64,000 nt of DNA from Clostridia bacterium (GTDB lineage Bacteria; Bacillota; Clostridia; Oscillospirales; CAG-272). The DNA lies in assembly GCA_017461385.1 (NCBI GenBank), contig JAFTXZ010000011.1, positions 1 to 64,000 of the forward strand. The letters run 5' to 3'. The translations under genes and the position numbers were made by a program. Every line of letters starts with the position of its first letter. Positions within the stretch are counted from its first letter, which is position 1. Positions 2,433 to 30,170 of the stretch are shown piece after piece. The notes under the pieces were generated by a model that was not told where the DNA came from, ran no database searches, and worked only from the letters and a program-made list of their open reading frames with translations.

Positions 2433-3227
2433 ATGAATGATTTTATTGTAAGTGATAACGTGCTTTTGGAGTATAAGGGCACTGAAGAAATCGTAGAAAT
2501 TACAGATGGAATAAAGGCTATTGCTCAAAACGCCTTTAAGGACAACAAGCACATAAAAAGTGTAAAAATAGGCGAGAGCGTGTCTGAATTAGGCGAAAAT
2601 GCCTTTGAAAACTGCACTAACCTTGAGAGCGTAATATTTGAGGGAGACATAATAAGGCTTCCTTGGTGTTGCTTTAAGGGCTGTGAAAGCTTGAAAAGTG
2701 TAATTTTGCCAAGCCTTCTTAGGCGAGTTGGTGATATGTGCTTTAGTGAGTGTAAAGCTCTTGAGGAAATTCAGCTTCCCGATTCCATTACAAAGATTGA
2801 CTTTAACGCCTTTTCCTTTTCCGGACTAAAAAGGGTAAAGCTTCCTGAAAGCTTAACAACAATTCATACAGGTGCATTTTCCTTCTGCGATAACCTTTCA
2901 TATATTAAGCTTGGAAGTGGGTCAGATTGGGAAAACAGAAATATTCGCAAATGGAGTTGGGCGTTTGACAGAGAGCTTCTTCCTATAATTGCCCTTGATA
3001 ATCTATCAAGGAATAGCACCCTTGCAAGGGAAATCGTAAGAGAGCCAACAATTGCAACTGAAAGCCTGATAAAGCGAGGTCGCATAGACCTGCTTGATAA
3101 GCTCCTAGACTACGCAGGCAAAAGAATAACTCCAACCGAGCTTGACTTTATGCTAAAAAGAGCCCAAGACCTAAACAGCAACGAGGCAACTAAAATCCTG
3201 CTGGAGTACAAAAACAACCTTAAATAA
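2433..3227 (+). CDS. BspA-type leucine-rich repeat protein
   Basis: A 264-aa protein with about five LRR_5 (BspA/TpLRR) repeats in residues 20-165, of the form NAFxxCxxLxxVxLPxSLxxIGxxAF. A helical C-terminal tail (about 180-264, ALDNLSRNSTLAREIV onward) resembles ankyrin-like ends of similar clostridial proteins. There is no signal peptide or anchor, so it is probably intracellular, unlike classical secreted BspA adhesins. Its start codon lies 4 nt after the GH35 stop and it ends at a hairpin terminator, so it is the second gene of that operon. LRR_5 repeats usually mediate protein contacts; its partner is unknown. Confidence 0.8.
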   Translation: MNDFIVSDNVLLEYKGTEEIVEITDGIKAIAQNAFKDNKHIKSVKIGESVSELGENAFENCTNLESVIFEGDIIRLPWCCFKGCESLKSVILPSLLRRVGDMCFSECKALEEIQLPDSITKIDFNAFSFSGLKRVKLPESLTTIHTGAFSFCDNLSYIKLGSGSDWENRNIRKWSWAFDRELLPIIALDNLSRNSTLAREIVREPTIATESLIKRGRIDLLDKLLDYAGKRITPTELDFMLKRAQDLNSNEATKILLEYKNNLK

Positions 3228-3229
3228 AC

Positions 3230-3260
3230 AAAAAGCCGACACATAGTCGGCTTTTTTTTA
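3230..3260 (+). terminator. Terminator of the GH35-LRR operon
   Basis: The stem AGCCGAC/GTCGGCT (3234-3252) is followed by eight T. It lies between two convergent operons and overlaps the stop codon of the opposite gene. Confidence 0.85.
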
Positions 3261-3821
3261 ATATCCATAGGGTACAGTCAAATCAATGGGGAAGGGCTTG
3301 CCCTGCCTTTTGTAAACGCAGGTTTCGCTACCACGTATTAGATACTCCGTAACCTTTTCTCTCTCCTTAAGAATTAAGGACGGGTTCTTGTTAATCGCAT
3401 CACGGACACGCCCATAGCTATCAACGTAATAGCCACCACTGTAGCCCTTGTTGAAAACTAAATCAGGCTCCAAGCCAAATAGCTTAAACGGCTCAGGGCT
3501 GTAAAACCCAAAAAATTCCGTGCTATAGGTAATGGCAAGTCTTTCAAATTTCACCTCAAGGGTAAAAATCTCAAGCCTTTGCCCAACTATAATTGAAGTG
3601 GTAAGCTCCTCGCTATTTGAAAGGGACTGATATGAAATCCAGTTGGGACCACCCCTGTATGCGTCCTCAAAATATTCTTGCCTTTTCTTTAATCTGTTCT
3701 CAAAAGCTCGAAGAGTAGACGATGAGGCAAAGCTATTAAGACGTTGCACCTTGAGCCTTATATGATTTATCTGTGCAATTCTTTTGTTAAGGTCGTCCTT
3801 TAATCGTTCAGCTCTTGTCAT
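3258..3821 (-). CDS. Hypothetical protein, last gene of a three-gene cluster
   Basis: I do not recognise this 187-aa protein. The first 75 residues are charged and helical (LKDDLNKRIAQINHIRLKV), suggesting a coiled coil; the rest is mixed with many aromatic residues (EFFGFYSPEPFKLFGL). There is no signal peptide or membrane segment. A ribosome-binding site (TGGAG) precedes the start, which lies 12 nt after the stop of the AAA+-like gene. The three genes 4987 to 3258 are probably translated from one transcript and may act together. Confidence 0.6.
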   Translation of the reverse strand: MTRAERLKDDLNKRIAQINHIRLKVQRLNSFASSSTLRAFENRLKKRQEYFEDAYRGGPNWISYQSLSNSEELTTSIIVGQRLEIFTLEVKFERLAITYSTEFFGFYSPEPFKLFGLEPDLVFNKGYSGGYYVDSYGRVRDAINKNPSLILKEREKVTEYLIRGSETCVYKRQGKPFPIDLTVPYGY

Positions 3822-3833
3822 AAAATCTCCAAA

Positions 3834-4379
3834 TTATTCCTCAAATTTGCTTATGTAGTAAAAGCAGTTCTTTGAATCGGAATTTATTAGCCTTGAAAGT
3901 CCACCGTGCCCCATATCGCCAACTGTGGCTATGGTAAACATAATCTCATCAAGATGTGAATAGCCAGCAACCGCGCTTTTATCAATTACAATACGTTCAT
4001 TTACCAGCTTTAGTAGATAGTACGCTTGTGCGGAGTCGTACTGGTGAAAATCCTCAAGAAACAAAACGGTATGCTTTTTATTCAGAGCATCAATTTCTTC
4101 CTTAGTGGGGGCTATAAAGGAGTCGTCAATATGGTCAATGGTTAATCTTTCCCTGTTTATTGTAATCTCTCCACCGCTTGGAGTAACTACAAATAAATTA
4201 AGATTATTTTCCTTAGCCCATTCCTTTACTAGCTGATTCATTTTTTCAGTGCCACGCTTGTTGCTAAATAGCACGTTTGGCGCGCTTATATTTTTGTAGG
4301 CTGAAAGACGTGGGGTACGACCAATTTCCAGAATTTCATCAAGGGCAGTGTCTAAAATTTCGTAAATTTTCTCTTTCAT
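3834..4379 (-). CDS. AAA+-like protein with degenerate P-loop
   Basis: This 181-aa protein reads like the core of a MoxR/AAA+ ATPase. PNVLFSNKRGTEKMNQLVKE (about 34-53) sits where a Walker A loop is expected but lacks the GxxGxGKT consensus and its key lysine. HTVLFLEDF (about 103-111) resembles Walker B with acidic residues, and EIMFTIATV (about 145-153) resembles sensor 1. There is no C-terminal lid domain and the protein is about half the normal length. I infer a pseudo-ATPase or nucleotide-independent scaffold. The neighbours upstream and downstream (8 and 12 nt away) are of unknown function. An unrelated fold is possible; structure prediction would decide. Confidence 0.5.
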   Translation of the reverse strand: MKEKIYEILDTALDEILEIGRTPRLSAYKNISAPNVLFSNKRGTEKMNQLVKEWAKENNLNLFVVTPSGGEITINRERLTIDHIDDSFIAPTKEEIDALNKKHTVLFLEDFHQYDSAQAYYLLKLVNERIVIDKSAVAGYSHLDEIMFTIATVGDMGHGGLSRLINSDSKNCFYYISKFEE

Positions 4380-4387
4380 AGAACACC

Positions 4388-4987
4388 TTAAACCTTTTTT
4401 AATGTGGTGTAGCCCTTGTCCTTAATCTCGGCTACAAATTGGTTTAGCTCCAGCACACCTAGGTGATTGCCCTCAAGGTTCAATTCGTTGCCATCACGCA
4501 AGGTCTTGTTAAGATTAAGGTGTAGCTTATCCTTATGATTAACAAGCTCAATTTCCACAACGCCCACGATTTCACCATCTGGGTAGTGCATATACGAGGT
4601 AGAGAAGTAAGAATCCCATTTGTCAAGCTCTTGTCCAATGGAATCCAAAAGCTCGAAGTATTTCTTAGAAGCAGAAAGAGGCAGGGACTTATCCCTTTCA
4701 AAGCGATAAAGAGAAGCAACGTTCTGCGCAATTTCAAGAAGCAAAAGCTCTTTTTTGGAAACAGGTAAAATAGTAATAACAGGCTCAAATAAGTAGGAAT
4801 AAGCGCGACCCCAAAGCTCTAGCTGAATAGAGTCGATTTTCCCCTCACTGTAAGCATCAATAAATGAAAGTATGGTGTTCAGGGAATAGGCGCCTCTATC
4901 CCTTTCAACGAGTCCGGCGTTTATCTTGCCCAAAATCTCGTTTAATTCCCCAATGCTAAGTCCGATTTTGCAAATTTTTTCCTTCAT
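4388..4987 (-). CDS. Hypothetical protein, first gene of a three-gene cluster
   Basis: I do not recognise this 199-aa protein. Its first half is helical and acidic (GLSIGELNEILGKINAGLVERDRG; FIDAYSEGK), the second half has alternating strand-like segments ending in HLGVLELNQFVAEIKDKGYTTL. No signal peptide or membrane segment is present. The start is supported by AGGAGGG 6 nt upstream. It heads the cluster running to 3258; no clear promoter consensus is visible in the short gap to the giant gene's terminator. Confidence 0.6.
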   Translation of the reverse strand: MKEKICKIGLSIGELNEILGKINAGLVERDRGAYSLNTILSFIDAYSEGKIDSIQLELWGRAYSYLFEPVITILPVSKKELLLLEIAQNVASLYRFERDKSLPLSASKKYFELLDSIGQELDKWDSYFSTSYMHYPDGEIVGVVEIELVNHKDKLHLNLNKTLRDGNELNLEGNHLGVLELNQFVAEIKDKGYTTLKKV

Positions 4988-5107: not shown

Positions 5108-8100
5108 TTATTCCTGAGCGTTAGCCAGCTCCTCAAGAGCGTGGCTTAGATAATCTGCGATATATCTATGACCAGCTGAGTTAGGATGCAAGCCATCAGG
5201 CATGTAATATTCTCTCGTTTCCTCGGCACTTGGGTCAAGGTCAAGGTCTTCAAAGAGATTAATTACGTCAACGGAGTAAATATCACATATCTCAACTATT
5301 GCATTTACGTAGTCCTCAAGAGTACAGCCAACACCATTTACCTGTGTATCGTCAGTGAAATCAACACCGGTTTGTGAGTTAGTGCCAAAGCCGTATCTGT
5401 GGAGAGGAGTGATAAATACAAGCTTAGAGCTTGGATATTTCTCAAGCAGTGCAGGGATAATTGTGTTAAGAGCTTCCTTGAAGTCCTCCAACGGAGTATC
5501 GTGACCGTAGTCGTTAGTACCCATAAAGATAGTAATTAAGTCTGCCTCTGGAATTTGCTCGTAACGATTGATAAGTGGGTCGTATTCATTGCCATAGCCA
5601 CTGGAATTACTAATACAGCTTCCAGCAACGCCCATGCCAGTGGTTTCCTTTAGCTTAAGAACCTCACCAAGGATTTCCCAATAGGTTTTTCCCTCGCAGC
5701 CAACACCCTCGGTAATGCTATCACCAACGAATATAGCAGTCTTATCCTGCCATGGACCCTTAGCCTGAATAGCCTCGCTTGCAACGAAGTATTCAGAGAA
5801 TAGAAGTCCACTGGCATCGCTTGTAATCATAACCATATCGTTTGCAATTTCCTCAGGTGTACGTACGTCATTAAAGATGCTAGCAGAGAAAATCTCACCC
5901 TTGAATGGCTGTGTTGAAATTCTCTTATCAGTACCAACGTAGAAATAAGAGTTATCAAATGGAACTGCCTTGTCAAGCGCAATTGACTCAACAAGCTTGC
6001 CATTTACATAAAGTGAAGCAGTTAAGTCCTTAATTGTAAAGGTCAGATGTACCGCCTCATTTGAACGAATATCTACGTTGAACAGGTAAGAGTAGCTTAC
6101 ACCAGCTATCTTGTACCATAGACGAGGTGCACCGTTTGTGTAAATCTCAAGATTCATCTTGTTGCTTGAGGTGCCGTCGTAGTTACCAAGAATTACGCCA
6201 CCTCTGTCATTCCAATCAGGAGATAGCTTAACAAGAAGCTCAAAGGTCATAGGAGTAGAGCCTAGCTTATCCTTAATAATGTAGTAGCTACCGTCCTTTA
6301 GTGAGCTGTCTGTGTTAGTGTAGTCATTGCTGATTGTACCATCAGACTCATAAGGAATACTGCAAATTTCAAATACCTTGCCACAGGCTCTACAAATTAG
6401 CTTGCCTTGACCCTCGGAGTCCTTGGTAGGCTCGGTAATTACCTCAAACACTGTGTCGTGGAATTTCCTTTCGTCAAGAATAGCTTCTTCAAAATATGCA
6501 CTTGAAAGAAGTAATCCAGCCTCATTATCAATTGCAATCATATCCTGCGCAATCTGCTCAGCGCTTCTTGCGTGATCAAAGAGGTTAACGGAGTAAATTG
6601 TTCCCTTGAAGTATTGAGCATTGCCAGGTCTGAAATCACCACCAATATGGTAGCCACTTGTTGATACAGGCAATGGAAGTGCAAGAGTCTTAACCTCTAC
6701 AAGCTCGCCGTTTAGGTATAGAGAAGCCTCCTTGCCATTTACACTAAGTGCAATATGAACAGGCTCATCGGAGCGAACGTCGGTGTCAAACTTACAGTCG
6801 ATTGTAGTTGTGCCGTTTACGAAGTAAAGCCTTAGCTTGCCCTCTTTGAACACCTCAAAGCTTACAATTGGCTTGCTCTTAAAGTTATTGCTAAGGATAA
6901 TACCTCCACGACCCTCGTAATCCTTGTCAAGCTGAATAATAGCCTCAAAGGTTAAAGGAGTCTTGCCTAGATCACAGCTTGTGCCACCGATCTTGCTTTC
7001 GTCAAATTCTTGACCTGCAAAATCCTTAGTAAATCCATTTTCAGTTAGGTAAGTAGAGTATAAAAGTCCCTCTGTACCATTCTTCACAAGGAGAATATCG
7101 CTCTTGATTTCCTCCTCTGTTCTTACGTCTTCAAATAGGTGTAGTGAGTAAATCTTACCCTTGAAGTACTGCTCGTTATTCAAGCGATAATCACCACCAA
7201 GGGCAAAGCCGTCTGTAATTTCGGGCAATGCCATAGTGAGAGTAGTCGACTCAGCAAGCTCACCGTTGATATAAAGCGAAGCAGTAAGGCCATCAATTGT
7301 CAGTGCCAAATTAATTGGCTTATCGGAGCGAATGTCGGTTGTAAAGGTATAGCTGTATCTTGTGCCATTTACTATATAGAATAGTCTTAGCATACCGCCG
7401 GCTAGAACCTCTAGATTAATTGTATCAATTGAGCCATCTGTGTAGTTGCCAATAATTACACCGGCACGATCAGCATAGCTTGTAGGAAGCATAATCGTTG
7501 CTTCGATTGTCTTAAATGGCTTTTCTAGCTTTTCAATTGAGTTGATTTTGTTGGAATCAAAGAAGGAGCCAGATACGGTAGTGCCACTTACAAAGGAAAT
7601 GCCCTCACTCTTTCCAAAGTATTCTACACAAAGAACGTCAGGGGCAGAGGCTGAAACAAAGTCCTTATCAAGAAGAATTTCCTCGTTTGTTCTTACGTCA
7701 CTAAACATACAAACTGAGAATATCTTGCCCATAAACACCTGCTTGCCCTCACGATTATCTCCACCTATCATAAAGCTTCTATCAATAGAAGGCATTGGCA
7801 TTATCACGTCAACGCTTTCTGTGAGCGCGCCATTAACGTAGAGTGAGGCAGTATAGCCGTCAATCGTTACTGCAATATGGACAGGGTCCTTGGAACGAAT
7901 GTCCTTGGAGAATACCACGTCAGTTCTTATACCGTTAGTAATGTAGAATAGTCTTACCTTGCCACCGGTATATATTTCTAGGTTGATTGCATTTTCATCA
8001 TCCATTGATGAGTAGTTACCAACAATTACACCACCACGGGCAAAAATGCTTGGGTCAAGCTGAATTGTAGCCTCAATAGTAAGTGGTGCTTTATTTACTG

Positions 8101-11100
8101 AAACAGGTATGGTTGTGCTTTCTGTAAAGCCTGAGCCTGTGTTATTATCAGGCAAAATTGAGCTACCTGAGAATACTGTTTCCTGTGATTCAATTAGCTT
8201 GTCGCAAACGGTACAAAGCTTGTACTTAATACCATTTTCAGCGGGAGTAGCAGGCTTTTGTGTAATCCACTCACTGCCAAAGTGAAGGGTTTTTGTAACA
8301 ACCTGGTTGCCACAGCACTTGCATTCCTTATAAATGTAGCCGTGCTGATCCTTAGTAGGCTCAACTCTTTGCTCTTTGCCAAAGTCGTGCTCAACCATTT
8401 GTCCGTTTGTTGAGTACTTAGCAACGATAGAGAACACGCTGTTTTCCGAGCATGTCGTTTCCTTAATAACTAGTGCAGAGTTAGATTGGAAGTACATAGA
8501 GCCTGAGTGCAGATTAAGGGAATTGAGAAGTGAAACGTAGTAGCGTTGACCATTCTTAACATAGGAGAACTGTAGGTCCTTATTATGAATAGCGCCAAGA
8601 GGCCACTCGTTAATAGACTTAAAGCCAATATCAACGCCAAGTACTAGATCGTCAAAGGTAGTTGGGTCAAAGGATTCCATATTAGCATAAATCTTGTTCT
8701 TAGGATTTTTATTCTTGTGGAATGCATCAATAAGCATTTGCTCCAGCTGTTGACCTAATGGGAACTTACCGCTATATTCAGCGGCATTCCAGGTGAACAC
8801 AATATAATCCTCGGATTCATAAAGCTCTCTCATGTATTTAGAGTAAGGATTGTAAACCTCGCTCCAGGAGAGAACGTCACCGCCAAATGGTGTAAAGTAA
8901 AGCTCGAACACGTCATCGCTTTCAGTACCGATATAAACTATCTTTTCGCTATCTGCAATTTCGTTGCCACGACCTGCAAGAATCAAGTCAATTTGTCTTG
9001 TAGATTCCTCATTCATATAGTTTTGGAACTCAAGGATTTCCTCCTGACCCTTTAGTGTAGGCATAAGTCTTAAGTAGTTTACAGAAACCTGATAAAGCTC
9101 CTTGTGGTCTGAAACTATTGTAGCTGTTTGAAGCTTCCAGTTAGCATTGTAGCCACCTGCATAGATTCCGTCAAGGTTGGAGCTTGATGTCCAAACTGCG
9201 TTCTTGTGAACAACGCCGTCCTTGTCAAGATAGTGTGAAACTGCACAGAGCTTAGTGTGCATCATATCGCTACCACCCTTTTTGCCCTCACTAAGAGTCC
9301 AGTCAAAGTAAGTGAAGTCAAGGAAGTCGGAAATCTTCTTGTCAGGCTGATACTCAGGATCACAGGGGTCGTTCATATATGTGTTGAAGTATTCAACAAC
9401 GGTTGAAGGAATTTTTGATGAATAGGTAATTGGATAAGCGTCTCTGTGGGAAAGAACGTTTACGTGAATACCCATCTTTGCACAGGATAGAAGCAAATAA
9501 GATACTCTTACAAAGCCAAATTCATCGTATTGCTCATTAACAAGCTGTCTTGTGTAGCCGAAGTATCTGCTATCACGATTAATATTGACTGCTGTTTGAA
9601 CGGAGAAGCGATAGGAGGAAATGTCAACGTAAACCTCCTCCTCGGGGAATGCTTTCTTATAAAGCATAGCCTGATAAATCATAAGCGCCTCACCAACGGT
9701 CATGTTGTGAGCAGTCGAATATTTTGGATATACGAAGGTATCAACGGTTACTGTTTCTCCGTTGATATTTTCAAATACCGTTTCCCCACGAGACATAAAG
9801 TTAGAGGAATTGTCAAGATGTGGGAATTTGTCGTAGGTTGCGTTAATAAAGCCGTCGCTTGAATTTATAGCTAGGTTAAATACGTCATTTACGGATACAG
9901 GCTCCTTAATGGTGTAGGTTTTCTCTGTGCTTGTAGCTGACTTAAAGGTAGGTACAGCTGGAGCCTTAAGAGTTACCTCGTTTACAGTAAGGAGATTATC
10001 AATAGCGTCCTGCCAGTATTCGTCTGTGATTGTTGTATCCAGATCAACGAATTTAGACTTGTCTATATTAAGAACCGCGTTCTTGGTATTACCCCAAATA
10101 ATTGAGCCACCGTCGAGGGAGGTATTGCCTGAAACCGTCGCACCTGCCAAATTAACCACAGTAGATGCAGCAGTTTCATACATAAAGCCACCCTTTGTAG
10201 CGCTATTGCTCTTAGCAATAACATTGTAAAGGTTAGCTATACTCTTACCAGAAACGTAAAGCGCACCACCGGTGCCCTGTGCCTCGTTATTCTCAAAGCT
10301 ACAGCCATTTACTGTAACCTCAGTGCCAAAGGTGTAGATAAACATACCTGCACCGTTTTCAGTAGTTGTATTACCAATAAAATCACTTGAATAAACAGAT
10401 GCAGTAGCACCCTCGTATAGGTAAACGCCGGCACCCATATTGGAGGAGTTATTTCTTATGGTGCTACCGTACATTGTAAGCGCACCAAAGGTATTGTAAA
10501 GGAAGCCACCGTTTGATCTTGCCGTATTTCTTGAGGCAACTATGTTGTTAAGTGTAGCCTCAGCTCCTAAGTTCAGCTGAATAGCGCCACCTGTACCACG
10601 GCTTTCGTTTCTTGTGAATATAACACCATCTGCCACAAGGCTTGATGTGTACATACAAATTGCACCACCTAAGGAGTCGGTTGAGCTTGCTTTGTTAGAA
10701 ACAAAGCTTGAACGCTCAATTCGTGCAGATACGCCACCTGTTAAATTGATAGCGCCACCGTCGTTTTTAGCAGTGTTAGATGCAAAATCCGTATCGTAAA
10801 TACCAAGATTTTGTGCTGTATCACCCTCAATTGCACGCTTGGTTGCGTAAATTGCGCCACCGCTACCATTTGAGTTGTTTTCCTTAATAGTTGAGTTGTA
10901 AATATTAACCTGTGAGTTGCAATCAATACTACTGCTGTAGGATATGTAGATTGCACCGGCATTTTTTGCTGAATAGTTTTTATCAATTGTTGAGGACTCA
11001 ATCGTTAGCTTAGCGCTTCTTACAGAAATTGCACCACCATAAGAGCCGGAGGAGTTTTCTGAAAGAGTAGAATTGTAAAGCGAAACGTTGCTTTCAGCTA

Positions 11101-14100
11101 TGATATAAATCGCACCAGCCTCACTCTCGGCAGTGTTGCCTACAAATGAGGAGTCGTTAACTGTAAGAATTGACTCACGCTCAACGCAAATAGCGCCACC
11201 GGTTGTAGCAGAGTTGGAAACAAGCTCACAGCCTACAAGATTAGCTCTTGCGCCAAATTCGTACTCTGTATCACTACTGTATAGTGAAATAGCACCACCA
11301 TTTGCTGCACTGTTGCCTATAAGCGAGCAATTTTCAAGATAAAGGAAGCGAGGAGTGTAGTCAACTATTCTTGTATTGAAGATAGCGCCACCTCGGGATT
11401 TTGCCACGTTGTCCTTGAAAACCGTATTCTTAATTGTAAAGGAGCTTGATGTATAAATCGCACCACCGCTACCGGTTACTGCCTTGTTGGACTCAAAGGT
11501 AGTATTGCCGTAAATAACGACGCCGTTTAAGGTTGCTGTATAAATAGCACCGCCATTTACCTCAGCGTAGTTGTCCTTAAATAATACAGGAGTTGAGGAT
11601 TTGTAGCCGATATATAATTGTGAGGTGCTATAGGAGGCAGAGTAGTAAACACCTCCGGTTACGGTTGCGTGGTTTCCAATAAAGCTACCGCCGTAAATTT
11701 TCATGATGCCGTAGTTGTAAACGATACCACCGCGGGCACCCTCGTTAGCCTCAAATAAGCCGTTGTAAATTCTTATATTGCCTTCACTGTAGAAAACACC
11801 GCCTATCGTGGAGTTACGACCCTCCTCGGTTGAGGAATCCTCAAGCTTAACGGAGTTGTTTTTGTAAACGCCACCGTAAACATATAAGCCACCGAATGGA
11901 ATAATGGCAACTGCGCCACCGACACGGTTAGGTCTTGACATTCTGTACTGCTCGCCATAGGTCTTTTCGTTGTTAGACTTGTAGCAGTTTATAACTGAAA
12001 GGTTTTCGTATAGCTTAGCTATAGCGCCGTTACAAACGAATATAACAGTACCGTAAACCTCTGTCTGCATATTGTCCTTATTACCGTCAAATGTAAGCAA
12101 GCCTGTGGTTGTAGACTCAGGATTACCAAGAATTAGTAAATCATCAGCAGACTTTAGCATTGAGTTAGTGCCGTCCTTTGCTTCACCTACAACGAAGATA
12201 TCACCGCCAAAGGATGGGGACCTTGTAAGCGTATGGTAAGCAGTAGAGAAGATAGTTACCTTTCTTGTAATATAGAAGGTACGGTCAAGCTCAAAGTCAG
12301 CCACAATTCGAATTACGCTCTTGCCGGCCAAGAGAGCATTTTCTAGCTCCTCAGCGCTTGAAACGTCGGTTGCATTTTCAAGCTTGCCGGAGGGCTCGTT
12401 GCCCTCCTCTGTATATTCAGGAATGCTATCTGTAATTACGTTTAACGTAACTGAATTGTAAATAACACTATTCCAGTAAGATTGAGTAGGATTTGCGTTA
12501 TTTACGTCCTTGTAGTTTTCCTTGCTTAGGTTAAGAATTGCGTTAAGGCTACCATTTACAAATGAGCCGTTTGTTGCTGTGTTAGAGGAAGCTGTAATTC
12601 CGTTAATGGTTAAGGAAGTGTCAGCATCGCTAATATAAGCAACTCCACCCTTGTCCGCCTTGTTAGAGGAGGCTATTATCTCATAAAGATAACCGGTTGC
12701 TTTTTTGCAAAGGTAGATTGCGCCACCGTTGCCATTTGCCATATTGGAGCTTAGCTCACAATCCTGTAGCTTAATGCTTGCGTTAGATCCGTCAACGTAA
12801 ACGGCACCACCGTTTCTTCCTGTCTCGTTACCAATCATTTGCGAAAGGTAGAGCTCAGCATTTGATTTGCCACTAAGGGATATAGCACCACCGTTTATAA
12901 CGGATTCGTTGCTATTAAACGTACAGCTATAAGCCTTAATTTGTGAATCAACAAGGGAGATAGCGCCACCCTCGTTTGCACAGGAGTTAAGATTAAATGT
13001 AGCACCGGAGAGATAGCCACTTGCTAAATAAAGGGCAATCGCACCGCCATTCAGGTCAGCATCGTTTCCTGTAAAGGTAGATGAGTCAACGTAAACGGAG
13101 GTAAGTGTACCATAAATAGCACCACCCTCAGATGCATAGCCATACTCAAAGCTATCCTTAACCGAGGTATATTCGCCACCGCTTACGTATACGATACCAA
13201 GACCTGCCTCGTTTTTAGAAAAAGTATTGTTGCTTGTCTGTGTAGTAGAGTCAAGGGCACAAATAAAGCCACCGTTTTCCTTTGCTTCGTTTGCATTTGC
13301 CTCGCTTGAGTCGATTGACGCTTCAACACCCTTCAGGTAAATAGCACCGCCATTAGTTGCGCTATTTGAAAGGAAGCTACAATCAGAAATTGTAGCATAA
13401 CAGCTCTCTAGGTAAATAGCACCGCCGTTTGTTGCACTGTTTGATACAAAGCTTGCGTTCGTTATATCAAAATCTCTGTTTATTGAATAGATAGCACCAC
13501 CATTTTCAGCGGTATTAGACTTGAAGGTAGAGCCTTCAATTGAGAGGGCTACGTTTTCATTATCAAGGTAAGCACCGCCACCAAGTGTTGCAGTGTTGCC
13601 CTCAACTAAGTAGGAAATAGTAACGTTGCCAGCTAAGGCATAAACGCCACCGCCGAGTAGGGCATTGTTTTCTAGAATTGTACCACCAAGGGACACAGCA
13701 CCACTCTCAACGTAGATAGCGCCACCGTTTTCCGCAGTGTTATTTTCAATTGTACCGCCAGTAATTGTAAGAGTACCAAGGCTGTAAATAGCACCGCCGA
13801 GGGTTGCAGTATTTGCTGAAATTGTACCGCCTGAAATTGTAAGAGTGCCAAGATTGTAAATAGCACCACCATTTTCGGCAGTGTTTTCAGTAATTACACC
13901 GCCACTTATATTAACAGTACCATTATTGTTAATTGCAGAGTCTGAATTGCCCTTAATAGTACCGCCATAAAGGTTAAGTGTACCATTTTCCAAAACGGAA
14001 ATTGTACCTGTCAAGGTTACGTTTTCATAAATGTTAAGCGTTGAATCGCTCGACACCTTAACGTTACCCTCAATTACTAAAAGGTCAGCACTGGGAGAGG

Positions 14101-16435
14101 TTGAAAGACCAAGGGTAAGGCTTGTGGCTTCGTTCTCGCCAACCACAAATAAAGGACCCTCAAATCCCTCAATAGGACTGATTTTACAAGAGGTAGTTGT
14201 AAAGATAATTGTATCTGCAAGTATATAAAGTGTTTTATCAAGAGAAATATCAGAAACTATCTTAATAAGTGGAGCCTTAGACAAAAGAGCAGACTCAAGG
14301 TCGGACTGATCCTTAACTAAAATTGCATTCCAAAGGCCGGAAACGCTTTCGCCACTGTAGTCGGTGTAGCTTGGAATTTGATCCTGTGTTTCAGTTACAG
14401 TCAGCTTATTTGCAATAGCGTCAGACCAATAGTCAGCACCGATTTCAGTATCTAGGTCAACGTGGTTTAGCTTGTTGATAAAAAGCTTAGCGTTCAAGGT
14501 GTTACCCCAAATGATAGGACCGCCTACCGTTGCAGTGTTTGAGGAAACCGTAAGACCGGAAAGAGTAACAACGGTACCGGCAGTAGTTTCGTACATAAAG
14601 CCACCCTTAGATGCACTATTCTCAATTGCAGTAATGTTGTAAAGCTTCAAGCTGCTCTTGCCTGATACGAATATGCCACCGCCAAGACCGCTTGAGGAGT
14701 TTTGTACAAAGGTTGTGGAATGTACTACTACCTCTGTGCCACCCGTATATACGAAAATGGCACCTGCGTTTGAGGTGTTTGTTTCACTACATGCGTTAGA
14801 AATAAAGCTACAGCCATATATTCCTGCCGTTGCACCTGTATATAGGTAAATAGCGCTACCTGCAAAGGAAGTGTTGTTCTTAAACGTGCTATTGTAAAGA
14901 TTGATTGTACTGTTAGCTCCGTAAAGTGCACCGCCCTTTTCTGATGAGGTACAGCCATTTATCTCAAGCTTATTAGCAGTAAGGGAGCTAGGAATATAGT
15001 TCTCAATAGAGCTATCGGTAGTAACGAAAATACCACCGCCGAGGGCAGCCTCGCCTGATGAAATTTTTACATTATCCATTTCAACAACCGAGTTGATTAT
15101 GTAAAATGCACCACCCTCCGAGGTTGCTGTGCTTTCCACAAGGCTTGTATTTCTTACGTAAGCATAAGCACCCTTGGCTATATACACGGCACCACCGTCA
15201 GCAGAGGTGTTTTTTTCAAGGCTACAATTTAGTAGCACTAGGTCGTTGTCAATTTCAAGAGTGTTGTGGGAGGTTGAAAAAATTGCACCACCGTAGGAGG
15301 TTGCGTCATTTGACACAAAGGAGCAATTTGTATAGGACATGGAGGTATAATTACCACCACCATATACGGCACCGCCGGTTTTAGCAGTATTACCCTCAAA
15401 CAATGTATCCTGCGCAGAAATTCTTCCTGTTGCATAAATCGCACCACCATAAGAGGTAGCGGAGTTATTCTTAAATATAACAGAGCCCTCGCCAGAGCCA
15501 ACGTTTCCACCCAGATAAAGCCTAGCACCTGAGCTTGATGGAAGATAAATAGCACCACCGGAGGTTGAGGCAGTATTATTCCTTATCTCAGCAGAGTAAA
15601 TATTAAGCGTACGGTAGTTATAAAAAGCTCCTGCACGAGAAGCAGAGTTGTTTTCAATAATACCACCATAAACGTTAGTTATAGCATAGTTGTAAAACGC
15701 ACCGCCATAAATAGACGCACCTGACGTGTTAACAGAGTTGTAGCTGTAAACACCGCCATAAATGTTTAACTCACTATCCTTACTAACGATAGCAACGGCG
15801 CCACCTATGTTGTTAGGATTTGTGTGCCCATAAGTCTCAACCAAGGTTCTTTCATTACCAACCTTTTTGCAGTTAGTAACTACTAAGCCCTCATAAAGGT
15901 CAGCCTTGGAATTAGGCGCAATAAAAACAACAGTACCTAAAACGTCAACGGTCATGCTTTCACTGTTACCGTTAATGGTGAGCACTCCTGCCTCATCACC
16001 GCTAAAGCCACCTAAATAAAGGGTAGCGGGTTCTTGACAGAGAGCATTTGTCTGGTCAGCACCTACAACGAAAATGTCCCCTGCAAACTCAGGACTACGA
16101 GTAAGTGTAACGTTGCTTTCTGCATAAATAATTGTGTTTTTTGTAACGAATAGGGTACGGTCGATTAAAAAATCACCTGCAATGCAAATGGCATCAATGC
16201 CATCTGCCAAAGCGCCCTCAAGCTCAGCAGAGCTAGTTACGTTTCTTGTTGTGTTCGGGAAGCCTACAAGCTCCTCATCGCCGATGCCTATATCAGGGGA
16301 GTCGATTTCAATATTCTCGCCTGCTGAAGCATCGTTCTCGACAGTCTGTGCAATTGCCTGAAATGGCATAATGGCAATAACCATTAAAAGAGCCAAAACG
16401 AAAGCAAAAACACGGCTTCTTAACCTTGTTTCCAT
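5108..16435 (-). CDS. Giant secreted beta-helix / PLD-like / LamG / SGNH protein
   Basis: At 3775 aa this is the largest gene here. Residues 1-29 form a signal peptide (cleavage after AIA). Three long modules (about 56-695, 698-1350, 1353-2155) each begin with a similar cap (SAELEGAL...DRTLFVTK), continue as dozens of GGAIY/NNTA units like Chlamydia Pmp and other right-handed beta-helices, and end in DLDT-YW-DAI tails. Residues about 2175-2690 resemble phospholipase D: H2393-T-K with TSSSNLD, and H2617-N-K with LLNSLNLHSG; the usual motif Asp is Ser in both. Four LamG-like domains follow (about 2783, 2972, 3155 and 3388 onward), with CxxC ribbons near 2715 and 3340. The C-terminus (about 3565-3770) is an SGNH hydrolase: GDSITEG, GTND, DGLHPN. 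No LPXTG or SLH anchor is seen. It probably binds and modifies surface glycans or lipids; substrate unknown. Confidence 0.85.
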   Translation of the reverse strand: METRLRSRVFAFVLALLMVIAIMPFQAIAQTVENDASAGENIEIDSPDIGIGDEELVGFPNTTRNVTSSAELEGALADGIDAICIAGDFLIDRTLFVTKNTIIYAESNVTLTRSPEFAGDIFVVGADQTNALCQEPATLYLGGFSGDEAGVLTINGNSESMTVDVLGTVVFIAPNSKADLYEGLVVTNCKKVGNERTLVETYGHTNPNNIGGAVAIVSKDSELNIYGGVYSYNSVNTSGASIYGGAFYNYAITNVYGGIIENNSASRAGAFYNYRTLNIYSAEIRNNTASTSGGAIYLPSSSGARLYLGGNVGSGEGSVIFKNNSATSYGGAIYATGRISAQDTLFEGNTAKTGGAVYGGGNYTSMSYTNCSFVSNDATSYGGAIFSTSHNTLEIDNDLVLLNCSLEKNTSADGGAVYIAKGAYAYVRNTSLVESTATSEGGAFYIINSVVEMDNVKISSGEAALGGGIFVTTDSSIENYIPSSLTANKLEINGCTSSEKGGALYGANSTINLYNSTFKNNTSFAGSAIYLYTGATAGIYGCSFISNACSETNTSNAGAIFVYTGGTEVVVHSTTFVQNSSSGLGGGIFVSGKSSLKLYNITAIENSASKGGFMYETTAGTVVTLSGLTVSSNTATVGGPIIWGNTLNAKLFINKLNHVDLDTEIGADYWSDAIANKLTVTETQDQIPSYTDYSGESVSGLWNAILVKDQSDLESALLSKAPLIKIVSDISLDKTLYILADTIIFTTTSCKISPIEGFEGPLFVVGENEATSLTLGLSTSPSADLLVIEGNVKVSSDSTLNIYENVTLTGTISVLENGTLNLYGGTIKGNSDSAINNNGTVNISGGVITENTAENGGAIYNLGTLTISGGTISANTATLGGAIYSLGTLTITGGTIENNTAENGGAIYVESGAVSLGGTILENNALLGGGVYALAGNVTISYLVEGNTATLGGGAYLDNENVALSIEGSTFKSNTAENGGAIYSINRDFDITNASFVSNSATNGGAIYLESCYATISDCSFLSNSATNGGAIYLKGVEASIDSSEANANEAKENGGFICALDSTTQTSNNTFSKNEAGLGIVYVSGGEYTSVKDSFEYGYASEGGAIYGTLTSVYVDSSTFTGNDADLNGGAIALYLASGYLSGATFNLNSCANEGGAISLVDSQIKAYSCTFNSNESVINGGAISLSGKSNAELYLSQMIGNETGRNGGAVYVDGSNASIKLQDCELSSNMANGNGGAIYLCKKATGYLYEIIASSNKADKGGVAYISDADTSLTINGITASSNTATNGSFVNGSLNAILNLSKENYKDVNNANPTQSYWNSVIYNSVTLNVITDSIPEYTEEGNEPSGKLENATDVSSAEELENALLAGKSVIRIVADFELDRTFYITRKVTIFSTAYHTLTRSPSFGGDIFVVGEAKDGTNSMLKSADDLLILGNPESTTTGLLTFDGNKDNMQTEVYGTVIFVCNGAIAKLYENLSVINCYKSNNEKTYGEQYRMSRPNRVGGAVAIIPFGGLYVYGGVYKNNSVKLEDSSTEEGRNSTIGGVFYSEGNIRIYNGLFEANEGARGGIVYNYGIMKIYGGSFIGNHATVTGGVYYSASYSTSQLYIGYKSSTPVLFKDNYAEVNGGAIYTATLNGVVIYGNTTFESNKAVTGSGGAIYTSSSFTIKNTVFKDNVAKSRGGAIFNTRIVDYTPRFLYLENCSLIGNSAANGGAISLYSSDTEYEFGARANLVGCELVSNSATTGGAICVERESILTVNDSSFVGNTAESEAGAIYIIAESNVSLYNSTLSENSSGSYGGAISVRSAKLTIESSTIDKNYSAKNAGAIYISYSSSIDCNSQVNIYNSTIKENNSNGSGGAIYATKRAIEGDTAQNLGIYDTDFASNTAKNDGGAINLTGGVSARIERSSFVSNKASSTDSLGGAICMYTSSLVADGVIFTRNESRGTGGAIQLNLGAEATLNNIVASRNTARSNGGFLYNTFGALTMYGSTIRNNSSNMGAGVYLYEGATASVYSSDFIGNTTTENGAGMFIYTFGTEVTVNGCSFENNEAQGTGGALYVSGKSIANLYNVIAKSNSATKGGFMYETAASTVVNLAGATVSGNTSLDGGSIIWGNTKNAVLNIDKSKFVDLDTTITDEYWQDAIDNLLTVNEVTLKAPAVPTFKSATSTEKTYTIKEPVSVNDVFNLAINSSDGFINATYDKFPHLDNSSNFMSRGETVFENINGETVTVDTFVYPKYSTAHNMTVGEALMIYQAMLYKKAFPEEEVYVDISSYRFSVQTAVNINRDSRYFGYTRQLVNEQYDEFGFVRVSYLLLSCAKMGIHVNVLSHRDAYPITYSSKIPSTVVEYFNTYMNDPCDPEYQPDKKISDFLDFTYFDWTLSEGKKGGSDMMHTKLCAVSHYLDKDGVVHKNAVWTSSSNLDGIYAGGYNANWKLQTATIVSDHKELYQVSVNYLRLMPTLKGQEEILEFQNYMNEESTRQIDLILAGRGNEIADSEKIVYIGTESDDVFELYFTPFGGDVLSWSEVYNPYSKYMRELYESEDYIVFTWNAAEYSGKFPLGQQLEQMLIDAFHKNKNPKNKIYANMESFDPTTFDDLVLGVDIGFKSINEWPLGAIHNKDLQFSYVKNGQRYYVSLLNSLNLHSGSMYFQSNSALVIKETTCSENSVFSIVAKYSTNGQMVEHDFGKEQRVEPTKDQHGYIYKECKCCGNQVVTKTLHFGSEWITQKPATPAENGIKYKLCTVCDKLIESQETVFSGSSILPDNNTGSGFTESTTIPVSVNKAPLTIEATIQLDPSIFARGGVIVGNYSSMDDENAINLEIYTGGKVRLFYITNGIRTDVVFSKDIRSKDPVHIAVTIDGYTASLYVNGALTESVDVIMPMPSIDRSFMIGGDNREGKQVFMGKIFSVCMFSDVRTNEEILLDKDFVSASAPDVLCVEYFGKSEGISFVSGTTVSGSFFDSNKINSIEKLEKPFKTIEATIMLPTSYADRAGVIIGNYTDGSIDTINLEVLAGGMLRLFYIVNGTRYSYTFTTDIRSDKPINLALTIDGLTASLYINGELAESTTLTMALPEITDGFALGGDYRLNNEQYFKGKIYSLHLFEDVRTEEEIKSDILLVKNGTEGLLYSTYLTENGFTKDFAGQEFDESKIGGTSCDLGKTPLTFEAIIQLDKDYEGRGGIILSNNFKSKPIVSFEVFKEGKLRLYFVNGTTTIDCKFDTDVRSDEPVHIALSVNGKEASLYLNGELVEVKTLALPLPVSTSGYHIGGDFRPGNAQYFKGTIYSVNLFDHARSAEQIAQDMIAIDNEAGLLLSSAYFEEAILDERKFHDTVFEVITEPTKDSEGQGKLICRACGKVFEICSIPYESDGTISNDYTNTDSSLKDGSYYIIKDKLGSTPMTFELLVKLSPDWNDRGGVILGNYDGTSSNKMNLEIYTNGAPRLWYKIAGVSYSYLFNVDIRSNEAVHLTFTIKDLTASLYVNGKLVESIALDKAVPFDNSYFYVGTDKRISTQPFKGEIFSASIFNDVRTPEEIANDMVMITSDASGLLFSEYFVASEAIQAKGPWQDKTAIFVGDSITEGVGCEGKTYWEILGEVLKLKETTGMGVAGSCISNSSGYGNEYDPLINRYEQIPEADLITIFMGTNDYGHDTPLEDFKEALNTIIPALLEKYPSSKLVFITPLHRYGFGTNSQTGVDFTDDTQVNGVGCTLEDYVNAIVEICDIYSVDVINLFEDLDLDPSAEETREYYMPDGLHPNSAGHRYIADYLSHALEELANAQE

Positions 16436-28277: not shown

Positions 28278-30170
28278 ATGCTAAACCTTAATACAAGATT
28301 TTTTTATTCTAAGCTGAACAAATACGAAAAAAAGCTATATCGCCAAATGGCAGAAAGCCTGCTAAAGGAAAACTATGTAATAAACCACGACCTAACCTGG
28401 GATAAGGCAAACTTTTTGAAGGTATTCGAGTCGATTGTTGACGATTTCCCAGAGCTTTTTTACGTAAGCTATAGCTATTTAGACTGGTCGAAGCCTTATG
28501 TACTTAAGGTAATGGGCAAAAAATATTATACCCACGAGGAAATAGTAGAAATAAGAAAAGAGCTTGATAAAATTTACCACAAATTTGATAGCATAACCGA
28601 CCCATTTGAATTGCAGGTGGCAGTTACCGATTTTATTTGCAAGGAATATACGTATTGCGGTATCTCTCGTGGGCCTAAAACCAAACAGGAAATGCACTCA
28701 ATAGTAGGACTTATCAAAAGGAAAAGGGGCGTTTGCTCTGCCTTTTCCCAATTAGCCCAATACATATTCCAAAGACGAGGAATACCCACAGCCTATGTTG
28801 TGGGAGAGTCAAAGGATAAGGACATAGACCCTGAAAAAAGCACTCACGCATGGCTCGCTATAAAGCACGAGGGCTCCTACTATCATTGGGACATAACTGC
28901 AATTCTTGGTGAATCAAAGGATGAGGAAACTACCCAATATTGTATGTTCAACGTAACCGACAAGGAAATGCTAGAGGGCTACGAATATACAAATGAGAGC
29001 TACAAGGACCTTGTATGCGATAAAACCGACTATAATTATTATCACAAAAAGGGACTTTATTTTTGGACCTATGAGGAAATAAAAGAGGGCTTTATAAAAT
29101 TCGTAAAGGAAATGGACTACACAAGGGAAATAAATTGGTTTAATTTCCGTATCGCTCCCGAAATAGACAACGAGGAGTCCTTGGAATATACCCTAAGCCC
29201 TGCAGAAATCAACGAATATCTAAAGGGAACAGAATATTTAACAAGCAAATTTAATTGCTTTTCCTATCGCGACGGGCAAGGATACTATCGTTGCAAAATA
29301 GTAACTAGAAAAAAGATAGAAAAAAAGCTAACCATAATTCAACCAAAATTCCATTGGGAGGAAAACCCCTGTAAAAACGTACGAGAATACCTACTCGAAA
29401 AGCTTTCTCACCTTGAAAGGGACGAAATAATGGTGCTTCCCGAATATTCAAACGCAGGTGGCACAAAGGATCCCGAGGTTGAGAAGGAAAACCTAAAATA
29501 TGCAAGGGAAATGAAAAAGGCTTGCTCCAAAATGGCAAAGGAAAGACAAGCCTATGTGGCTGTAAACGTACTTGAAAAGCGAGGAGACAAGATAAAAAAT
29601 AGCACCTACCTGTACGGAAAGGATGGAGAGGTTGTCTTTGTTTACGATAAGGTACACCTGCCCCCTGCTGAAAAGAGCCTAGGTATCGTAAGGGGAGAGG
29701 GCAATTGCACAGTAGAGTGCGACGGCATACGCTTTGCCTTTATGACCTGCTACGACGTTTATTTCAATGAACAAATTGAGCATATAGCAAAATTCAAGCC
29801 AGATATAATAATATTACCAGGCTATCAAAGAGGTGAGCAGGTTGATATAATCAAGGCACAAGCAACGCTTCTTGCTTATAGGTGTAACTCCTACGTGCTT
29901 CGCTCATCCTATACAATGGGTAAGGATAACCTGGGCGGTTGTTCACTAATAGCTTCTCCAATGGGTAAGATTCTTGCCTGTCTTGGAAAGGACGAGGGAA
30001 GTGTCTCAATTACCGAAAATATTAAGCTAAAATGCTATCGTCCCGCAGGCTTTGGTGGAGAATATGTACGCAACGACAAATTCATAGACGACGGACTCTG
30101 CCCCGAGGCATTCAAAGACTCCCCCTCAAGAGGAAGGGGGACCGCAACCGCCAAACAAGACAAAAAATGA
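28278..30170 (+). CDS. Transglutaminase-like / carbon-nitrogen hydrolase fusion
   Basis: A 630-aa cytoplasmic protein with two catalytic modules. The N-terminal half is transglutaminase-like: C153 in RGVCSAFSQLAQYIF, H190 in STHAWLAIK and D205 in YYHWDIT form the expected triad. The C-terminal half is a nitrilase-type amidohydrolase: E389 in MVLPEYSNAG, K458 in VYDKVHLPP and C491 in MTCYDVYF. Between them lies a linker of about 150 aa. I do not recall this combination as a common architecture. The last residues (from about DSPSRGRGT) are encoded by an interspersed repeat at 30121-30219, so the original C-terminus was probably different. Amide chemistry on a peptide or peptidoglycan-like substrate is a guess. 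Confidence 0.75.
   Translation: MLNLNTRFFYSKLNKYEKKLYRQMAESLLKENYVINHDLTWDKANFLKVFESIVDDFPELFYVSYSYLDWSKPYVLKVMGKKYYTHEEIVEIRKELDKIYHKFDSITDPFELQVAVTDFICKEYTYCGISRGPKTKQEMHSIVGLIKRKRGVCSAFSQLAQYIFQRRGIPTAYVVGESKDKDIDPEKSTHAWLAIKHEGSYYHWDITAILGESKDEETTQYCMFNVTDKEMLEGYEYTNESYKDLVCDKTDYNYYHKKGLYFWTYEEIKEGFIKFVKEMDYTREINWFNFRIAPEIDNEESLEYTLSPAEINEYLKGTEYLTSKFNCFSYRDGQGYYRCKIVTRKKIEKKLTIIQPKFHWEENPCKNVREYLLEKLSHLERDEIMVLPEYSNAGGTKDPEVEKENLKYAREMKKACSKMAKERQAYVAVNVLEKRGDKIKNSTYLYGKDGEVVFVYDKVHLPPAEKSLGIVRGEGNCTVECDGIRFAFMTCYDVYFNEQIEHIAKFKPDIIILPGYQRGEQVDIIKAQATLLAYRCNSYVLRSSYTMGKDNLGGCSLIASPMGKILACLGKDEGSVSITENIKLKCYRPAGFGGEYVRNDKFIDDGLCPEAFKDSPSRGRGTATAKQDKK

Follow-up and report, generated by a model that had tools for sequence, protein, structure and literature searches.

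The window, a stretch of 64,000 nt from a Clostridia bacterium genome (contig JAFTXZ010000011.1), carries a gene for a giant, probably secreted protein in which a Pmp-like beta-helix is joined to a phospholipase D (PLD)-like domain. These two parts are a recurrent core pair, linked in all 23 loci found (10 fused, 13 as tandem genes), and the fused forms lie together on a single branch of the PLD-like domain tree. On balance, the giant protein probably represents a two-part surface system fused into one chain, composed of a beta-helix that would act as scaffold or target binder and a PLD-superfamily-like phosphodiesterase.

The giant gene and its beta-helix region

The gene occupies positions 5108..16435 on the minus strand, which the earlier note had left unstated, as one unbroken ORF of 3775 codons running from an ATG at 16435 down to 5108, with an AGGAG sequence just 5′ of the start codon (read by eye). 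On the opposite (plus) strand of this interval, the one frame tried contains many stops. Giant ORFs with a similar overall layout are found in nine further genomes, which rules out a chance reading frame or an assembly artefact. The protein starts with a signal-peptide-like stretch, followed by three Pmp-like beta-helix modules and then a PLD-like segment, and it ends in four LamG domains and an SGNH hydrolase domain. A Pfam scan returned five families at E ≤ 1, and those above the curated cut-offs were Chlam_PMP (10 stretches), Laminin_G_3 (4 stretches), Lipase_GDSL_2, Lipase_GDSL and Laminin_G_2. A regular-expression check of N-termini places a putative signal peptide, lacking a lipobox, at residues ~1–30 (16346..16435, minus strand), with cleavage near AIA↓QT, and export of the protein via this N-terminal signal is likely. 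The intact ORF and signal-peptide-like start agree with the earlier note, which had described a single 3775-aa secreted chain with no LPXTG, SLH or other known anchor. The last point also held: LPxTG is absent from the sequence, and neither Gram_pos_anchor nor SLH was among the five Pfam families at E ≤ 1. Residues 2705–2744 (8204..8323, minus strand) contain two CxxC pairs resembling a zinc-ribbon-like linker by eye, and have no Pfam match.

The beta-helix region comprises about 2100 aa. Chlam_PMP (PF02415) matched the giant protein with 106.7 bits over its 10 stretches, the NCBIfam model POMP_repeat matched 16 stretches, and residues 1–2160 contain 49 GG-type motifs with a median spacing of 26 residues, compared to a mean of 4.9 and a maximum of 11 in 200 shuffled sequences. 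The region is divided into three homologous modules, 34–45% identical over aligned positions, that share recurring start and end pieces. Modules 1 (aa 61–690; 14366..16255) and 3 (aa 1353–2155; 9971..12379) were delimited by Chlam_PMP matches and module comparison, and module 2 (aa 701–1345; 12401..14335) by module comparison, all on the minus strand. The patterns of the end pieces mark all three modules in six of the ten giant proteins found, and two of the three in the other four. A single module gave no convincing match to PDB. The three-module, Pmp-like beta-helix of the earlier note was thus upheld by the two repeat models, the GG spacing and the module comparison.

The repeats are of the GGA(I/V) type found in chlamydial Pmp proteins (PF02415, TIGR01376), scoring above the curated cut-off, and by analogy the giant protein is expected to form a long beta-helix and to be exported to the surface. 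It differs from the chlamydial proteins in having no autotransporter barrel among the five Pfam families at E ≤ 1, in its Clostridia host, and in that an enzyme-like domain accompanies the repeats, either in the same chain or as a partner. In the open-licence literature, no paper describing an enzyme that partners Pmp-type repeats in Clostridia was found, and nothing relevant to this architecture, or to Pmp repeats in gut Firmicutes, was seen by title and abstract start. The tight genetic linkage to a candidate phosphodiesterase offers a testable idea of what beta-helix proteins of this type do in Gram-positive gut bacteria.

The PLD-like domain

The PLD-like domain spans residues 2195–2683 (8387..9853, minus strand), as delimited by an HMM of its own family and by invariant motifs. 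Twenty-two full-length domains were compared, with relatives 37–82% identical to that of the window. Two HxK…N motifs are invariant in all 22 (H2393, K2395, S2400, N2420 and D2422 at 9170..9259; H2617, K2619, D2620, Y2625 and N2641 at 8513..8587; both minus strand), including the H, K and N of each. This is the arrangement of the PLD superfamily (cardiolipin synthase, Nuc, Tdp1), where two HxK motifs are each followed by a conserved Asn of the GSxxN type. The family departs from it in having HxKxxxxS/T in place of HxKxxxxD: the Asp of the HKD motif is replaced by the invariant Ser2400 in the first motif (22/22), and by Ser or Thr in the second (13-row alignment).

Matches to known PLD models were weak. 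Five of the 22 members matched PLDc_2 (PF13091) at E ≤ 0.1, the best at 6.2e-4 and 20.1 bits against a cut-off of 27. In the four members where the match was located, it fell on the first half of the domain in L029 and L095 and on the second half in L026 and L094, as would be expected of a duplicated PLD domain. The window's own segment had no PLD match in Pfam and hit CHASE2 alone (E 0.0018–0.0022); as CHASE2 (E about 0.002) was matched by one of the 22 members, this was taken to be a chance match. When searched against PDB as a single sequence, the segment retrieved three unrelated chains (E 0.039–0.78) and no PLD, while family profiles of 7 and 13 rows gave no match up to E 10.

Profile comparison was made with 24 proteins from related genomes, at loci retrieved by a PF13091 search, which we take to be cardiolipin-synthase-type from their length and motifs. 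Aligned to these by hhalign, the 13-sequence family gave no significant result; the best alignment (3.5%) covered 15 columns outside the motifs, and the second (1.0%) had both motifs in register. Half-domains, built from 21 of the 22 family sequences, reached at most 12.6% against reference half-domains, again over 15 columns outside the motifs, with decoys at 0.1–0.6% (family versus decoy) and up to 1.4% (reference versus decoy). The two halves of the family did not match each other (0.9%), whereas those of the reference PLDs did (97.7%). With HMMs built from the references, shuffled sequences ranked as high as the family. A profile link to the cardiolipin-synthase-type proteins was thus sought in three ways, none giving significance, and the family is not covered by any Pfam model used here. 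The earlier note had called this domain PLD-like and had proposed HMM searches for each domain. These placed the Pmp, LamG and SGNH regions above cut-off, and PLDc_2 below cut-off in relatives and unmatched in the window. What stands of the PLD assignment is the pair of HxK…N motifs in 22/22 sequences and the weak PLDc_2 matches in 5/22, with no significant profile or PDB match, and a PLD-like fold for residues 2195–2683 is likely rather than shown.

The loss of the HKD Asp from both motifs, together with the lack of a significant profile match to active PLDs or between the domain's own halves, would suit a domain that had lost PLD activity, or never had it, and whose role is structural or in binding, the whole protein being an adhesin. 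We regard this as rather unlikely, because a site no longer in use would be expected to change, as happened to the serine of the SGNH domain (see below), whereas the H, K and N of each motif are the same throughout 22 sequences that are 37–82% identical to the window. Tdp1 is reported to have an HKD motif that differs from that of other PLDs and still to hydrolyse its substrates (PMC7786179).

Fused and two-gene forms

The search for PLD-like relatives covered genome contigs, 96 near relatives, and samples of 395 genomes of the family, 394 of the order, 391 of the class and 398 of the phylum. After removal of false matches, the PLD-like family comprised 23 loci in 22 genomes. All were full length except L012 (genome G006), which is truncated at the end of its contig. 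No further credible member came from the class and phylum samples, so the family looks narrow, and even in the family sample the gene is sporadic (19/395 genomes). The matches removed were those of L013 in genome G017 (E 7.8e-4), a 143-aa ORF beside a cas1-like gene (by eye); L084 (E 4.4e-4), where the ORF reads by eye as a histidine kinase; and L085 and L086, which are short frames with stops. The L013 locus itself appears by eye to be a type II-A CRISPR locus, with cas1 and a csn2-like ORF.

Ten loci in ten genomes are giant fusions (the window, L014, L023, L024 and L087–L092). The domain order given in the earlier note was correct, but it is not unique to the window, since the full order with four LamG domains and SGNH occurs in five of the ten giants (the window, L014, L023, L087 and L088). 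Three others (L089–L091) have five LamG domains and no SGNH, and L024 and L092 show one LamG domain. In the remaining 13 loci, the PLD-like ORF is the next gene after a Pmp-repeat ORF that runs in the same direction, and −4 to +23 bp separate the stop of the first from the chosen start of the second; start codons and N-terminal signals were picked by simple rules, and in L032 the chosen start is not an ATG. The linked beta-helix was recognised by PF02415 in 21 of the 23 loci, and by GG motifs and reading in L014 and L012. This recurrent pair, and its existence as tandem genes elsewhere, could not be seen by the earlier note.

Among 30 chosen genomes, Pmp repeats were present in 20/20 with the PLD-like gene and in 0/10 of the same genus without it, and all Pmp repeats listed at E ≤ 0.001 in the former 20 sit in PLD-linked ORFs. 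Within a family sample of 246 genomes, Pmp repeats were found in 15, these being 10/10 with the PLD-like gene and 5/236 of the others (Fisher p 1.6e-14, with genomes treated as independent though they are related); the figure of 5/236 assumes that the 246 lie within the family sample of 395, as the listed handles suggest, with 211 not listed. The stretches fetched from the five genomes with Pmp repeats and no PLD-like gene, which omit one contig of G955, contained no PLD-like, LamG, SGNH or phosphoesterase match at E ≤ 0.01; this absence of the PLD-like gene is weak in G880 and G992, where the repeat ORF is cut by a contig end and the G992 assembly is 53% complete. Large Pmp-repeat ORFs with no PLD-like partner were seen at L117:4221-16127 (3969 aa, G955) and L115:6875-12775 (1967 aa, G836). 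As all 23 PLD-like loci are linked to a beta-helix, and 5 of the 15 Pmp-positive genomes are unpaired, the PLD-like gene is always seen with a beta-helix while the beta-helix can stand alone. The beta-helix and PLD-like domain are firmly established as the core of the system.

In a maximum-likelihood tree of the 22 full-length PLD-like domains, a branch supported at 100/100 separates all ten fused forms from the two-gene forms. Because the root was set at the midpoint, the tree is compatible with either direction of change, fusion or splitting. The nearest rows to the window, by path, are L023 and L087, from two genomes of other genera of the same family, while five other members of the window's own genus have the two-gene form, making transfer between genera, or repeated loss, likely. 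A mobile-element origin was considered and set aside, as the PLD-like domain had no match in plasmids and phages (tblastn) or in viral contigs. One of the relatives is the 'Clostridia bacterium' RGIG1646, from goat cecum, which carries the L014 giant. Two ORFs noticed by eye behind that gene resemble a TIR-domain protein (L014:14991-16859) and an SGNH-like protein (L014:16859-17614). In four loci of the window's genus (L007, L009, L010 and L011), the two-gene pair is followed by a convergent ORF that resembles, by eye, a membrane acyltransferase.

Accessory modules, anchoring and proposed function

Four LamG domains follow the PLD-like domain in the window's protein, at residues 2776–2925 (7661..8110), 2967–3115 (7091..7537), 3153–3300 (6536..6979) and 3387–3535 (5831..6277), all minus strand, as placed by Pfam and the domain scan of relatives. 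Laminin_G_3 (PF13385) scored 209.6 bits over four stretches, above the cut-off, and the earlier count of four LamG-like domains was confirmed; one of them gave no convincing match to PDB. The repeats are those of LamG/ConA-like surface proteins, with the difference that in the giants they stand behind a PLD-like domain in 4, 5 or 1 copies.

The C-terminal SGNH hydrolase domain (aa 3561–3775; 5111..5755, minus strand) was matched by Lipase_GDSL_2 (PF13472) with E 3.7e-21 and 76.8 bits, compared to a cut-off of 32.9, and has PDB relatives 7bxd and 3dc7. Its motifs are intact (GDSITEG, MGTND, DGLH), providing the GDS, GTND and DGLH blocks of SGNH/GDSL hydrolases, so the terminal SGNH domain noted earlier is well founded. 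NCBIfam matches to lysophospholipase L1 (E 3.8e-4) and acetylxylan esterase AxeA1 (E 0.0028) were both far below cut-off. With intact motifs, a Pfam score well above cut-off and these weak NCBIfam matches, the protein could be seen as an esterase or glycan-degrading surface protein in which SGNH supplies the main activity and the remainder is a binding scaffold. This is very doubtful, and SGNH is ruled out as the core of the system, because the domain is an optional C-terminal module: five of the ten giants lack it, none of the 12 scanned two-gene PLD-like ORFs has it, and its catalytic Ser is replaced by Gly in two of the five giants that have it (L014 and L087), where the other motifs are kept. 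The replacement requires at least two changes on the tree, as L087 is sister to L023 (Ser) with 99/98 support and L014 lies outside this pair.

A different hydrolase accompanies some of the two-gene forms. In 4 of the 12 complete two-gene PLD-like ORFs (L026, L027, L028 and L093), the protein continues into LamG and a calcineurin-like phosphoesterase, recognised by Pfam in L026 and L027 and by our own HMMs in all four, with the motifs GD, GNHD and GHDP. Its position behind the PLD-like domain agrees with a phosphodiester substrate. A search for the subtype gave weak and mixed matches, and the L026 phosphoesterase had no PDB match up to E 0.1.

Signals for anchoring are unevenly distributed. 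Of the two-gene beta-helix partners with complete N-termini (11), nine carry a lipobox by a loose pattern and five by a strict one; the corresponding numbers are 4/12 and 0/12 for the two-gene PLD-like partners, and 1/10 (L089) and 0/10 for the giants. No LPxTG was found in any of the ten giants, and when those of the window, L023 and L024 were scanned with Pfam, no anchor family was matched. The lack of anchors, and the linkage of the two parts in 23/23 loci, would also be consistent with an adhesin and its processing enzyme, the PLD-like domain modifying or attaching its own beta-helix partner, for example by phospho-histidine transfer. We consider this unlikely, since many of the two-gene beta-helices (9/11 loose, 5/11 strict) have their own lipobox-like site and need no attaching enzyme, and the calcineurin-like phosphoesterase in four loci suits a breakdown function better.

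For the preferred reading, a beta-helix paired with a phosphodiesterase, a mechanism can be proposed from PLD chemistry as described in PMC7786179, in which the phosphate is attacked by one histidine while its counterpart acts as proton donor. The signal peptide would export the giant chain, and the beta-helix and LamG domains would dock on a glycan or cell surface, where the LamG domains could hold the fused chain on the glycan. The histidine of one HxK motif would then form a phospho-enzyme with a phosphodiester of a surface lipid, a teichoic-acid-like polymer or nucleic acid, after which the other HxK motif would finish the hydrolysis. An accessory hydrolase may trim the product (SGNH in the window, calcineurin-like phosphoesterase in the four two-gene relatives). 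Attachment to a host or bacterial surface and cleavage of lipids or phosphodiesters, as the earlier note had proposed, are possible activities of the giant. A more general form of this proposal, which we hold tentatively, is that an unnamed, lineage-restricted PLD-type branch (HxKxxxxS/T) operates with Pmp-like beta-helices, such that the rod picks the target, the enzyme cuts phosphodiesters, and the second hydrolases are exchangeable. The variants seen in nature, in which the two parts are fused or split and SGNH, a serine-less SGNH or phosphoesterase may be added, can serve directly for comparison.

The giant gene is adjoined by genes for a GH35 beta-galactosidase and a BspA-type LRR protein, and three tRNA genes lie upstream. 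Downstream, at 3258-4987 (minus strand), are three consecutive co-directional ORFs (199, 181 and 187 aa) with no Pfam match at E ≤ 0.01. None of these neighbours was shown to be part of the giant-protein system. Elsewhere in the window, positions 28278-30170 (plus strand) encode a 630-aa protein that combines a transglutaminase-like core with a carbon-nitrogen hydrolase domain.
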